Origin: Arcobacteraceae bacterium
GTDB taxonomy: Bacteria; Campylobacterota; Campylobacteria; Campylobacterales; Arcobacteraceae
Length of the DNA: 64,000 bases
Direction of reading: 5' to 3'
Assembly (NCBI GenBank): GCA_028687375.1
Contig: JAQUAG010000001.1
Coordinates: forward strand, 186,001 to 250,000
Shown here: piece after piece, positions 3,358 to 16,393 of the stretch
Layout of the letters: every line of letters starts with the position of its first letter
Position numbering within the stretch: the first letter of the stretch is position 1
The notes under the pieces: model-generated
What the model saw: only the letters and a program-made list of their open reading frames with translations
What the model was told of the DNA's origin: nothing
The model's database searches: none
Translations under genes and position numbers: made by a program

Positions 3358-4701
3358 ATGAAACTATTTGGGACAGATGGAGTAAGGGGAAAAGCTGGAG
3401 ATTTTTTAGATGCTATGACGGCACTAAAACTAGCACAAGCAGCTGGAATATATTTTAATTCAATTGCAACAACAAAAACGAGAAAAATACTTTTAGGAAA
3501 AGATACAAGAAGAAGTGGCTATATGATAGAAAATGCTCTTGTAAGTGGATTTACAAGTGTTGGTTTTGATGTGATACAAATAGGCCCTATGCCCACTCCT
3601 GCTATTGCTTACCTTACTGAATCGATGAGATGTGACGCTGGTATTATGCTTAGTGCTTCACACAATCCTTTTGAAGATAATGGTATCAAATTTTTTAACT
3701 GTAAAGGGGATAAATTAAGTAGCGATATCGAAGCTAAAATCGAAGAAATTTTTTACGATGATAAACTCTTAGCCTCTGCTCAAGTGACAGGGATGAATAT
3801 TGGAAAAGCAAAAAGGATAGATGATGTTATAGGGAGATATATCGTTTCAATTAAAACATCTTTCCCTAAAAATCTTTCTCTAAATAGTCTAAGGATAGTT
3901 CTTGATTGTGCAAATGGTGCTGCATATAAAGTTGCACCTACAATTTTAGAAGAACTTGGGGCCGACTTAATTGTGCTTAATAATAAACCAAATGGATTTA
4001 ATATCAATGATAACTGTGGAGCATTACATCCTGAAAATTTAGGGAAAGTAATACGAGAATATAGAGCAGATATTGGAATAGCTCTAGATGGGGATGCAGA
4101 TAGACTTGTAATCGTTGATGAAAAAGGTGAAGTGATAGATGGAGATAAACTTATAGGTTCCCTTGCTGTTTTTCTTAAAAGCGAAGGAAACCTTCCATCT
4201 AATTGTTGCGTAGCAACAGTTATGAGCAATATAGCATTAGAAGAATACTTAAAGAAAAATGGCATTGAACTTCACCGTTCAAATGTTGGAGATAAATATG
4301 TTCTTGAAGTTATGAAAGAGAAAACTATCAATTTTGGTGGGGAACAAAGTGGACATATTATCTTTAACGATGTAGCTAAAACGGGAGATGGCTTAGCATC
4401 AGCTCTTCAAGTACTTTCACTTATCCTCAAAAGTGGAAAAAAAGCAAGCGAGGTTCTCAATCCTTTCGAACTCTCACCTCAGATTCTTAAAAATATCAAT
4501 ATTGAAACAAAAATACCATTAAAAGATATAGCTGGACTTGAAGAGATGCTTGAGGGATTTAGAAAACTTGGTATTCGTGACCTTATTAGATACTCTGGAA
4601 CTGAAAACAAAATAAGATTGCTTCTTGAAGGTGAAGATAAAAAAATACTAGATGCTTCAATGGAAACTCTTATAAAATTTATCAAAAGCAAATTGTGTTA
4701 A
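3358..4701 (+). CDS. glmM: Phosphoglucosamine mutase
   Basis: GlmM interconverts glucosamine-6-phosphate and glucosamine-1-phosphate for UDP-GlcNAc, hence peptidoglycan and lipopolysaccharide. From the ATG at 3358 the protein has 447 residues and starts [16 protein letters not shown], the canonical N-terminus; an open frame reaching back to 3283 adds 25 unsupported residues that overlap the promoter. The phosphoserine loop is [15 protein letters not shown], the metal site DGDADR, and the phosphate-binding C-terminus has [10 protein letters not shown]. lspA follows within a few bases. Confidence 0.96.
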
Positions 4702-4706
4702 GAACA

Positions 4707-5165
4707 ATGCAAAAAAAAATTATTATATTTATATCTATTTTTATAGTCCTTTTCACTGTTGACCAAAGTATTAAAAATATCTTTGTAAATGGCTTTGGAA
4801 TTGATGGGGAGTGTATCTCACTAGTTCTTGCTTACAATAAAGGTGTTGCATTTTCGATGTTTGCTTTTTTAGAAGGGAACCTTAAATATATCCAAATAGC
4901 TATGCTTATAGCTGGTATAATTTATCTTTTTTCTAATAAAGAGATTTTTAACTCTTACTATATCCCTGCTGCTATTTTGATTTCAGGTGGGGTGAGTAAT
5001 ATCTACGATAGATTTATCCATGAGGGTGTGGTGGATTATGTTTATTGGCATTGTGGATTTGATTTTGCGATATTTAATCTTGCCGATGTTTTAATCGATA
5101 TTGCCGTTGTTTTAATGATTTATATCAACTATAAAAATGAGAAGATGAAAGAGAAATTAGCATAG
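4707..5165 (+). CDS. lspA: Lipoprotein signal peptidase (signal peptidase II)
   Basis: This inner-membrane aspartyl peptidase cleaves prolipoproteins before the lipidated cysteine. About 152 residues with four hydrophobic segments are present. The two catalytic aspartates lie in GGVSNIYDRF and FAIFNLADVL, matching the family's NxxDR and FNxAD motifs. I chose the ATG at 4707, five bases after the glmM stop; a GTG at 4695 overlapping glmM is the alternative. Neither has a strong ribosome binding site, so translational coupling to glmM is likely. Confidence 0.93.
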   Translation: MQKKIIIFISIFIVLFTVDQSIKNIFVNGFGIDGECISLVLAYNKGVAFSMFAFLEGNLKYIQIAMLIAGIIYLFSNKEIFNSYYIPAAILISGGVSNIYDRFIHEGVVDYVYWHCGFDFAIFNLADVLIDIAVVLMIYINYKNEKMKEKLA

Positions 5166-5279
5166 AGAAAAGAAACTCGTTTCTTTCTTTAGGATTTCTC
5201 GCAGAGAGTTTAACAACAGGCTACTTTAACCTTGATTTACTTAAGGTGGTAAAAGTAGACATTTTAAAAGGGGTAAATA
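5166..5279 (+). repeat. Structured intergenic repeat, copy C (leader of the AmmeMemoRadiSam genes)
   Basis: This copy matches the tandem pair at 14824-15052 when both are read along the transcribed strand. It shares the block TTTCTTTCTTTAGGATTT, then the hairpin CTACTTTAACCTTGATTT / AAGGTGGTAAAAGTAG (5221-5258), then ACATTT. A second hairpin, AAGAAAC-TC-GTTTCTT, sits at its 5' end. It carries an insert of about 20 bases (TTAACAACAG region) absent from the other copies. Its 3' end merges into the ribosome binding site AAAAGGGG (5266-5273) of the next gene. Repeat and hairpins are seen; a leader-RNA role is inferred. Confidence 0.8.
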
Positions 5280-5822
5280 ATGGAAGAGATTATTAAAAAA
5301 ATAGCTTGGGATTCAATTAAAAGCCAATTAGAGCAAAAAAATGGAGTTTCTAAATATGAAGCTGTAAAACTTTTTCCTGAGTTTGTCCTCCCAAGAGCTA
5401 CCTTTATTACTTTAAAAAAAGATGGAAACTTACGAGGTTGTATCGGTTCTCTTGTCGCACATAGAGAACTTTTTGATGATTTAGTAACAAATGCTAAAAA
5501 AGCTGCTTTTGAAGACCCTAGATTTCGTCCAGTTACACTTGATGAATTAGATAATATCTCCCTTGAGGTTTCTATTTTAACCCCACCTACATTAGTTCAA
5601 TATGAAGATATTGAAGATTTAAAAACAAAAATCACTATTGGAATCGATGGGATTATCCTCAAGCTTGGGGATAAACAAGCAACTTTTTTACCACAAGTTT
5701 GGGAAGATATAAGTGACTTTGATACATTTTTTAATCATCTTTGTAGAAAAGGTGGATTAGATGGGAATTGTTTAGCTAATCATCCCCAAATCTATAAATA
5801 TCAAGCCCAAAAGATAAAATAG
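5280..5822 (+). CDS. amrA: AmmeMemoRadiSam system protein A (AMMECR1 family)
   Basis: The protein has 180 residues and a single AMMECR1 domain; the family signature LRGCIGSL is at about 59-66, followed by FRPVTLDEL and LEVSILTPP. AMMECR1-like proteins often occur with a radical SAM enzyme and a MEMO-like protein, a trio named AmmeMemoRadiSam whose chemistry is not established. The TAG stop directly abuts the ATG of the radical SAM-AmmeB fusion, so the two are one operon. The ribosome binding site AAAAGGGG lies at the end of structured repeat copy C. Family assignment is firm; function is unknown. Confidence 0.92.
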   Translation: MEEIIKKIAWDSIKSQLEQKNGVSKYEAVKLFPEFVLPRATFITLKKDGNLRGCIGSLVAHRELFDDLVTNAKKAAFEDPRFRPVTLDELDNISLEVSILTPPTLVQYEDIEDLKTKITIGIDGIILKLGDKQATFLPQVWEDISDFDTFFNHLCRKGGLDGNCLANHPQIYKYQAQKIK

Positions 5823-14519: not shown

Positions 14520-14816
14520 TTAACTATCCAACCTACAAACTATATCACCAGTAAATTCTACATAAAGTGATTTCTTATGATTTTCTATCTCATCTGGATT
14601 TGAATATGGATAACTTTTTATTTTTTTATCAATATCTTCATCACTATAATGCTCTCTAAGCATCACTTCCATCACAGCAAACCTTTGAAATATAATATCA
14701 AACTGATCTTTTACTAAATCATCACTTGCTTGATTAACAATATCCCAAAACTTTGATTTTGGAGTTCCCCCAAAAATATCATTCTCATCCTCAAATAATG
14801 CATCATATTTACTCAT
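14520..14816 (-). CDS. Conserved small acidic protein of unknown function
   Basis: I do not recognise this 98-residue protein. It begins MSKYDALFEDENDIFGG, is acidic and mostly helical, with no signal or membrane segment, and ends VEFTGDIVCRLDS. Start ATG 14814-14816 has the ribosome binding site AAAAGGA seven bases upstream, lying in the 3' arm of a perfect hairpin of the structured repeat. crcB follows three bases after its stop. It could be a cytoplasmic regulatory or adaptor protein; nothing decides this. Confidence 0.75.
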   Translation of the reverse strand: MSKYDALFEDENDIFGGTPKSKFWDIVNQASDDLVKDQFDIIFQRFAVMEVMLREHYSDEDIDKKIKSYPYSNPDEIENHKKSLYVEFTGDIVCRLDS

Positions 14817-14823
14817 AGTATTT

Positions 14824-14850
14824 CCTTTTAAAATGTCCCATTTTAAAAGG
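14824..14850 (-). promoter_or_regulatory. SD-sequestering hairpin before the 98-residue protein gene
   Basis: CCTTTTAAAATG (14824-14835) and CATTTTAAAAGG (14839-14850) are perfect 12-base complements around a 3-base loop. In the minus-strand RNA the 3' arm contains AAAAGG, the ribosome binding site of the gene starting at 14816. Folding would hide it, so translation could depend on temperature, a ligand, a protein or upstream ribosomes. The hairpin is seen; regulation is inferred. Confidence 0.6.
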
Positions 14851-14937
14851 GACCTATTGTTAAATGTCTACTTTTAGCACCTTGATTAAATCAAGGTTAA
14901 AGTAGCAAATCCTAAAGAAAGAAAAGAATTCCTTTCG
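14824..14937 (-). repeat. Structured intergenic repeat, copy A
   Basis: This is the gene-proximal unit of a tandem pair, nearly identical to copy B over about 114 bases. In transcribed order it has a 5' stem with GGAATTC (degenerate compared with the other copies), TTTCTTTCTTTAGGATTT, the central hairpin CTACTTTAACCTTGATTT / AATCAAGGTGCTAAAAGTAG (14868-14905), ACATTT, and a final hairpin containing CCC...GGG and the ribosome binding site of the gene at 14816. Confidence 0.85.
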
Positions 14938-15052
14938 CTTAAAATGTCCCATTTTAAAAGGGAGCTATTATTAAATGTCTACTTTTAGCACCTTGATCAA
15001 ATCAAGGTTAAAGTAGCAAACCCTAAAGAAAGAAACAAGTTTCTTTCACTCT
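14938..15052 (-). repeat. Structured intergenic repeat, copy B
   Basis: This is the upstream unit of the tandem pair, between hisD and copy A. It has a perfect GAAAGAAAC / GTTTCTTTC hairpin at its 5' end (transcribed strand), the central hairpin at 14979-15016 with one base changed within the loop from copy A, and a final CCC...GGG hairpin that has lost two T residues relative to copy A. The 5' hairpin is shared with copy C at 5166-5279. Confidence 0.85.
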
Positions 15053-15103: not shown

Positions 15104-16393
15104 TTATCTTAATCTAACTCTTACAGATTCAGCATGCGCTGTTAATCCTTCAGTATCAGCTAAAAGTGCACATTCAAATCCTACCTCTTGTATTGCTTTT
15201 TTGCTAAAACTAATAATTGAGCTTTTTTTCATAAAGTTTTCAACATTGAGTGGACTATAAAATTTAGCAGTTCCCCCTGTAGGAAGTGTATGGTTTGGAC
15301 CAGCTACATAATCTCCTATTGGTTCAGGTGTATTTTCCCCTAAGAAAATTGCCCCTGCATGTTTGATTTTTGGTAATAATTCAAATGGATTTTGTGTTAT
15401 AACCTCAAGATGTTCAGGTGCTATCTCATTCATAAGGTCAATCGCTTCATCCATTGAAGTTGCTATTATGATACAACCTCTTTCATCGATAGACTTTCTT
15501 GCTATTTCATTTCTTGAAAGTATCTTTAAATATCTTTCAACCTCATCACTTGTCTTATATGCAAGATTTTCATCTGTTGTAATAAGGATAGAACTAGCCA
15601 TCTCATCGTGTTCTGCTTGAGAAAGTAAATCAATAGCTAAATAGTTTGCTTTTGCATTACTATCAGCTAATATCCCTATTTCACTTGGACCTGCTATCAT
15701 ATCTATGTTGACTTCACCAAAGACAAGTTTTTTTGCAGTTGCTACAAAAATATTTCCTGGCCCTGTGATAACATCCACTTTTTTCAAACTTTTTGTTCCA
15801 TAAGCCATCATAGCAATCGCACTTGCACCTCCTACTTTAATCACAGTTGTTACTCCACAAAGGTGGCAAGCTGCAAGTAAAAGCTCATTTGGCTCATTAT
15901 TTGGTGTTGGAGTACATACCACTATCTCTTTAACCCCAGCTACTAGTGCTGGGATAGCATTCATAAGTAAACTACTTGGATATGCTGCTTTTCCACCTGG
16001 TATATAAAGTCCAGCTCTATCAACTGGAGTCACTTTTTGCCCTAAGATTGTCCCATTTTCTTCAAAATCAAGCCACGATTTTGGAAGTTGCTTTTGGTGA
16101 TATTTTTCAATTCTATCATATGCTAAGTGTAGAGATGCTTTTAATTTAGGTTCAAGATTATTATAAGCTTGTTCCATAAGAGCAACATCGATGAAAAGAT
16201 CATTGACATCTTTTGGTGACCATTTATCAAATCGTTCAATGTGGTTACAAATAGCGCTATCTCCATCTTCGATTATCTCATCAATTATCTTTTGAACAAT
16301 TCCACTAACACCTTTAATATCAACTTTCCCTCGTCCTAAAATCTCTTCAAATTCATTTTTAAAGTTTGTATCTTTTGTATTTATTATTTTCAT
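15104..16393 (-). CDS. hisD: Histidinol dehydrogenase
   Basis: The protein has 429 residues. HisD performs the last two oxidations of histidine synthesis, histidinol to histidine, with NAD and zinc. Recognisable segments are YIPGGKAAYPSSLLMNAIPA, ITGPGNIFVATAKKLVFG, IDMIAGPSEIGI, the LLSQAEHDEMA zinc-binding region and ENTPEPIGDYVAGPNHTLPT. hisF is elsewhere in the window on the same strand, so his genes are scattered. The two tandem structured repeats lie directly downstream. Confidence 0.97.
   Translation of the reverse strand: MKIINTKDTNFKNEFEEILGRGKVDIKGVSGIVQKIIDEIIEDGDSAICNHIERFDKWSPKDVNDLFIDVALMEQAYNNLEPKLKASLHLAYDRIEKYHQKQLPKSWLDFEENGTILGQKVTPVDRAGLYIPGGKAAYPSSLLMNAIPALVAGVKEIVVCTPTPNNEPNELLLAACHLCGVTTVIKVGGASAIAMMAYGTKSLKKVDVITGPGNIFVATAKKLVFGEVNIDMIAGPSEIGILADSNAKANYLAIDLLSQAEHDEMASSILITTDENLAYKTSDEVERYLKILSRNEIARKSIDERGCIIIATSMDEAIDLMNEIAPEHLEVITQNPFELLPKIKHAGAIFLGENTPEPIGDYVAGPNHTLPTGGTAKFYSPLNVENFMKKSSIISFSKKAIQEVGFECALLADTEGLTAHAESVRVRLR

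Follow-up and report, generated by a model that had tools for sequence, protein, structure and literature searches.

Two intergenic regions of the window (the whole stretch of 64,000 nucleotides of Arcobacteraceae DNA analysed here) carry the same repeat, in one of them as a tandem pair. Is this repeat a leader RNA, a mobile repeat, or a mobile repeat turned into a leader? The first-pass annotation had described three copies of about 114 bases, lying between genes, read along the coding strand and ending at the ribosome binding site of the next gene. Conserved strings and gene positions agree that the repeat is real, intergenic and in coding-strand sense in 3/3 copies: TTTCTTTCTTTAGG occurs exactly three times in the window, at 5180 (+), 14911 (-) and 15022 (-), as does CTACTTTAACCTTGATT, at 5221 (+), 14889 (-) and 15000 (-). 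The tandem pair at 14828-15049 is made of two 111-nt copies (92% alike by comparison within the window sequence). The first description needed some correction, one point being that the 5166 copy is incomplete.

The element is about 115 nt long and comprises, from 5' to 3', a 7 bp hairpin P1 with a loop that is often CUCG, a CUUUAGRRUUUG strand (J), a hairpin P2 whose internal loop, A facing GNUA, is conserved, an A/U-rich linker and a 3' domain. This domain is arranged as a-b-a'-b', where a is GGUCCC, b is UUNNAANNN, a' is GGGAC(C) and b' is NNNUUNNAAGGA. Pairing of a with a' gives P3a, in which the Shine-Dalgarno sequence (SD) is freed, and pairing of b with b' gives P3s, in which it is covered. 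The strands of P3a and P3s abut, and therefore both hairpins cannot form in full. The predicted energies of P3a and of the SD-paired fold lie at most 3 kcal/mol apart in 90 of 120 copies. J was also considered as a CsrA site and rejected, its GGA often being GGG or GAG.

The window copies depart from this plan to different degrees (Table 1). The 3' end lies at a ribosome binding site in the gene-proximal tandem copy and in the 5166 copy, as had been claimed, but not in the outer tandem copy, which is without SD, abuts the next copy with its 3' end and has CUCCC, not GUCCC, as its a strand. In the 5166 copy, P1 and P2 are present, J is split by a 23-nt insert at 5198-5220, and the P3 hairpin is missing, with an apparent deletion between GACATTT repeats. 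Taken alone, this copy folds no better than its own shuffles (z +0.6) because P3 was lost and the insert gained. Inserts of 20-25 nt resembling CTCRMAGAGAGTGNNARCAYAAGG recur in various copies and genera, always at one position within J (the window copy, L051, L352 and L268).

Table 1. Positions of the repeat copies, their parts and the adjoining genes in the window.
Feature	Position	Strand	Remarks
Gene-proximal full-length copy	14823..14936	-	Ends at SD of ORF 14520-14816; covariance model 134.5 bits; shuffle z -4.9
P1 hairpin, gene-proximal copy	14917..14936	-	Covarying helix
Conserved joining strand J, CUUUAGGAUUUG, gene-proximal copy	14906..14917	-	Almost unchanged among 14 own-genome copies; good conservation in 136 copies of the family
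P2 hairpin, gene-proximal copy	14868..14905	-	Two helices of 7 bp (outer and inner) around internal loop A / GNUA; strongest covariation
P3a, gene-proximal copy	14835..14853	-	GUCCC/GGGAC hairpin; SD left free
P3s, gene-proximal copy	14824..14850	-	CCUUUUAAAAUG/CAUUUUAAAAGG alternative hairpin pairing with SD; covarying core
SD AAGGA, gene-proximal copy	14823-14827	-	Paired in P3s
Downstream gene of tandem pair	14520-14816	-	DUF2018 protein, 98 aa
Outer tandem copy	14939..15049	-	P1-J-P2-P3 order kept; 117 bits; shuffle z -2.5
Upstream gene of tandem pair	15104-16393	-	hisD
Third copy, before AMMECR1 gene	5166..5279	+	42 bits, E 1e-5
P2 of 5166 copy	5221-5258	+	
SD AAGGGG of 5166 copy	5268-5273	+	
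Downstream gene of 5166 copy	5280-5822	+	AMMECR1 / AmmeMemoRadiSam system protein A
Upstream gene of 5166 copy	4695-5165	+	lspA

The repeat is far from limited to the three copies first described, as about 25-30 are present in the window's own genome. BLAST with one unit gave 38 matches there, on both strands and on ten or more contigs, and a covariance model (R1) built from 14 own-genome copies gave 30 at E<=0.01. The SD columns included in R1 could slightly favour SD-linked matches; the unbiased BLAST recovered the same own-genome copies. The element is present in 41 of 100 related genomes (0-28 copies per genome), nearly all of the carriers being in one family (f1) that we infer to be the Arcobacteraceae. 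Loci outside the window's genome include those of Arcobacter sp. and Epsilonproteobacteria MAGs. One MAG labelled Helicobacter pylori PMSS1 (L091 and L092, CAMCYD01 records) carries the element, groups with the window's genus and is probably a mislabelled Arcobacteraceae bin. Rfam 15 yielded no family match, with 0 matches in the window at gathering score and only sub-threshold, chance-level matches for a single copy. A search of 72,556 plasmids and 50,697 phages found no match to the element.

Covariation was judged on two sets of copies. Among the 14 own-genome copies, changes on both sides were seen in 18 of 33 pairs, and four of five covariation measures beat all shuffles (0/500 as good) and all slid controls. 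In a set of 136 copies (about 35 genomes), base pairing was much better between true partners than between partners swapped among copies, with z values of -24 for P1, -30 for P2 inner, -6 for P2 outer, -13 for the P3s core and -4 for P3a; with swapping confined to single genomes, the result was 0/500 for every helix. Support for P3a from these alignments is modest because this hairpin is nearly invariant. A long-range helix P0, pairing CUUUAGG with the SD strand to close a three-way junction, was perfect in a few copies and was rejected, as its 105 unique pairs gave no covariation (z -0.3). That the repeat is both structured and dispersed is hardly in doubt.

At which level is the structure selected? 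Mismatches read on the mRNA strand were G-U in 74 and A-C in 32 cases (0.70, vs 0.54 expected from swapped partners), which favours selection on the transcript, although the excess is modest and was obtained with a structure-guided alignment. Between congeneric orthologues, pairing was kept in 110 of 139 changes at paired positions, 83 of them double and 27 single. Such pairing-preserving changes are compatible with selection, with overwriting by a different copy and with hairpin-templated repair, and given the dominance of double changes between orthologues part of the covariation could come from hairpin-templated repair of DNA. Selection of the structure at the RNA level seems likely to us.

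The 3' end of the element is tied to translation starts. In 145 of 151 copies, a start codon in coding orientation lies 0-16 nt (mostly 3-8 nt) past it, counting only start codons that open a frame of 40 or more codons, vs 21 of 151 at the opposite element end in an antisense control. Most of the 6 exceptions are outer tandem copies or precede truncated genes. In the own genome, 24 of 25 copies have a start codon just after their 3' end. Together with the strong covariation and the lean of mismatches towards G-U on the mRNA strand, this bears out the reading as a structured leader. Copies in random orientation without covariation, or a known MITE, the pattern set against a leader in the first-pass annotation, did not arise in Arcobacteraceae.

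The same-strand upstream gene often ends 60 nt or less from the element. Stable hairpins between cotranscribed genes would also suit an mRNA processing or stability element, such as an RNase III/E site of NEMIS or ERIC type between operon genes, for which there are precedents (PMC2649163, PMC2229807). By itself, such a role leaves the SD-anchored 3' domain and the covariation of the SD pairing unexplained, and we regard it as highly improbable.

The earlier proposal that a small mobile repeat had been co-opted as leader also found support, in the presence or absence of the element at the same sites in close relatives. Upstream of nifU, it is found in G000, G001, G006 and G004, and the congeners G005, G007 and G002, like most other genera, have an empty site with a native SD. 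Empty and filled sites were likewise seen at der, thrB, L036, L069, L136, L143, L187, L188 and others (about ten genes beyond nifU and der). The empty sites keep a native AAGGA-type SD, which the element adjoins on its 5' side. The window gene 14520-14816 is preceded by the tandem pair in G000, by a remnant consisting of P3 only in G003, and by no copy in G001, G005 and G006; the site at the gene 5280-5822 is empty in G001 and G005. Thus, copies come and go, and the element is very probably gained and lost as a unit. Some orthologous copies, of which only P3 or a portion of P2 is left, were found at hisH, in the L186 group and at the window gene in G003 and, with the loss of P3 in the 5166 copy, imply that the switch is not kept everywhere. 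As to a target-site duplication, AAGGA-like sequence flanks both sides of the element in the filled/empty pairs at thrB, L143 and L188, and not at L187 and L136. The element ends (P1 5' arm vs P3/SD) do not form an inverted repeat.

Two known routes of mobility were considered and rejected. The Y1 transposase of RAYT systems (PF01797) is absent from the copy-rich genomes G000, G006, G038, G046 and G056, and its presence does not correlate with copy number. Both R-box heptamers of an integron attC site (RYYYAAC and GTTRRRY) occur in only 2 of 151 copies.

In several genomes (L047, L174, L180 and L268), the P3a loop contains, at nearly the same position, another small hairpin repeat (GGTNCCCTAAAAAAAT...ATTTTTTTAGGCACC), and a third, palindromic repeat (CTTCATAGCGTAGTCTTGTGRCGAAYGAAGTGAAG) lies within P2 or P3 at L054, L148, L162 and L259. 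At L059 (G000:C48:64260-64351), before a leuA/nifV-like gene, P3 and the SD follow a different, unrelated hairpin array, and P3 may therefore be a separable module.

Could the repeat be purely selfish or neutral, MITE- or REP-like, aiming at AAGGA-type targets, tolerated at SD sites, with hairpins that serve mobility only and no regulation? The polymorphism at identical sites, the tandem arrays and the decayed copies are consistent with this. Among noncoding AAGGA sites of the window, however, 12 of 19 are SD-positioned, and a preference for AAGGA alone would therefore not yield the observed linkage (~96% vs ~63% expected). Nor does neutrality account for the covariation of both competing folds, one of which covers the SD, for the G-U bias on the mRNA strand, or for the recurrence at the same genes across genera described below. 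We consider a neutral repeat possible, though rather unlikely.

The downstream proteins of 145 copies fall into about 91 clusters, with no single pathway (thrB, purD, trpB, der and luxS are included). Since these genes are mostly unrelated, the idea of a cis-regulatory RNA with a single dedicated regulon finds no support; an unrelated gene set is also what a neutral repeat would lead one to expect. Against such neutrality, 14 gene clusters recur in two or more genera, vs 3-5 expected from a random draw among 1000-1500 genes. Some cluster names are readings of the protein sequence alone; the recurrent clusters include P-II, NifU-like, 2Fe-2S ferredoxin, rubredoxin, IspH, HypB-like, PrpF-like and SufC-like proteins, a 119-aa protein and others. 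The element precedes the nif-region 2Fe-2S ferredoxin gene in 8 of 16 genomes, with four genera represented. Copies at this site are alike between G025 and G020, and also between G038 and G046, which suggests descent or transfer of the whole site. The element stands repeatedly, in five genera, before the gene of the 119-aa protein (MFVCGYHFPA...; L067, L083, L100, L125, L141 and L143), which gave no Pfam or NCBIfam match.

A tilt towards Fe-S and redox genes downstream is suggestive only. Recurrence before such genes (NifU, 2Fe-2S ferredoxin, rubredoxin, IspH, SufC-like) would be in keeping with a ligand-binding riboswitch class in which the CUUUAGRRUUUG strand and the P2 internal loop form the aptamer and P3 the expression platform; the modular anatomy, the conserved unpaired strand and the SD-sequestering switch have the structure of such a class. 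However, about 91 gene families without a common pathway, gain and loss between congeners and loops that are little conserved make a riboswitch very unlikely.

Beyond the Arcobacteraceae, a sample of the phylum showed a recognisable P1-J-P2 core, with weaker scores and no P3 after it, in families f10 and f20, by inference Campylobacteraceae/Sulfurospirillum-like genomes. This core is intergenic in either orientation in G104 and G100, and lies before an SD in G258, G331 and G111. An antisense core copy was seen at the 3' end of 23S rRNA in G276 and G273. Since some core copies lie far from start codons and the orientation varies, the core points to a mobile repeat; these mixed orientations agree with a neutral repeat too. 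It looks like a dispersing repeat that gained an SD-anchored 3' domain in its Arcobacteraceae branch.

In three Sulfurospirillum-like genomes, the core directly precedes 16S rRNA (L398 in G197, L395 in G276, L397 in G326), and we therefore took up the possibility of an rrn-type Nus-factor (boxB/boxA) antitermination site, with J as boxA and an effect of binding on translation as at Escherichia coli suhB (PMC5725501). A CUUUA-containing strand after a hairpin would suit this. Comparison of 22 rRNA leaders showed that in Arcobacteraceae the 16S leaders lack the core and have a boxA-like TCTTTAAMA of their own, that the f10/f20 leaders likewise possess a separate AATCTTTGAAATCT, and that G095, of the same family, has a 16S leader without the core. 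Moreover, J does not fit the boxA consensus GYTCTTTAANA (PMC5725501). The antitermination site was rejected on these grounds, and we leave it a minimal probability.

On balance we lean towards a small repeat that disperses and has been co-opted, or has specialised, as a leader controlling the SD, and we would, with the same slight inclination, expect a measurable effect on translation of the next gene. A repeat of ~115 nt lies immediately 5' of a native SD and would join the leader of the gene that follows, its spread being driven by a process favouring AAGGA sites. Its 3' domain would then act in cis as a two-state translational switch: with P3a (GUCCC/GGGAC) formed, the SD would be open, and refolding to P3s would place the anti-SD strand CCUU over AAGG, so that initiation would fall. 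The P1-J-P2 core may bias or time the choice between P3a and P3s, or bind a general factor through the CUUUAGRRUUUG strand. More tentatively, and rather less probably, the element could be a mobile translational switch, i.e. a transmissible RNA-structured element with SD-specific, sense-only insertion, perhaps guided by the SD itself, that supplies each host gene with a two-state SD hairpin. In that case, the set of genes tuned post-transcriptionally in Arcobacteraceae genomes would keep shifting.

The usual view is that genomes tolerate small interspersed repeats in the least harmful places, for example between convergent genes. Here, a large repeat family is found almost only at translation starts; it keeps two mutually exclusive folds at the SD, and its copies are gained and lost from one sister species to another. 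If regulatory, it would be a clear natural case of a dispersing element dealing out regulatory leaders, in a family with culturable members, and nifU, thrB, der and the ferredoxin gene, whose sites occur both with and without the element, offer ready-made paired alleles. As far as could be found, this family of ~115-base folded RNA leaders is previously undescribed. Stav et al. 2019 (PMC6429828) screened intergenic regions of Arcobacter sp. L and mention motifs confined to Arcobacter without naming them, leaving their details to supplements; no description was found in the literature seen on Arcobacter riboswitches, repeats and MITEs and on dispersed repeats of Epsilonproteobacteria.

Among known systems, SD-sequestering riboswitches and RNA thermometers share the two exclusive folds, one hiding the SD; the present element differs by having no shared gene function or Rfam match and by its gain and loss between congeners. 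The boxA/Nus-regulated suhB leader (PMC5725501) is likewise a 5'UTR element near the SD that can repress translation, but its sequence and rRNA context do not match. REP/BIME units with their RAYT (Y1) are also palindromic and interspersed, whereas Y1 genes do not track the copies described here. Like MITEs of the BOX/NEMIS type, the element is dispersed and non-coding, and relatives differ in whether a given site holds it; the terminal inverted repeats that define MITEs were not found. BOX elements of Streptococcus pneumoniae (PMC3049150) are also small, structured and dispersed; they are built of modules with tandem parts, have proliferated in the past, and can alter neighbouring-gene expression. 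They are over-represented between convergent genes, in contrast to an element located almost only at SDs in coding orientation and equipped with an SD-pairing switch, and no common sequence was detectable through Rfam. Correia/NEMIS repeats of Neisseria (PMC2649163, PMC2229807) are short mobile hairpin repeats, often near genes, that vary between strains and affect adjacent expression; they have terminal inverted repeats, promoters and RNase III/IHF sites, whereas the present element is without terminal inverted repeat and has the SD as its 3' end. By analogy, it would work like an SD-sequestering leader and spread like BOX and NEMIS repeats (PMC3049150, PMC2649163, PMC2229807).
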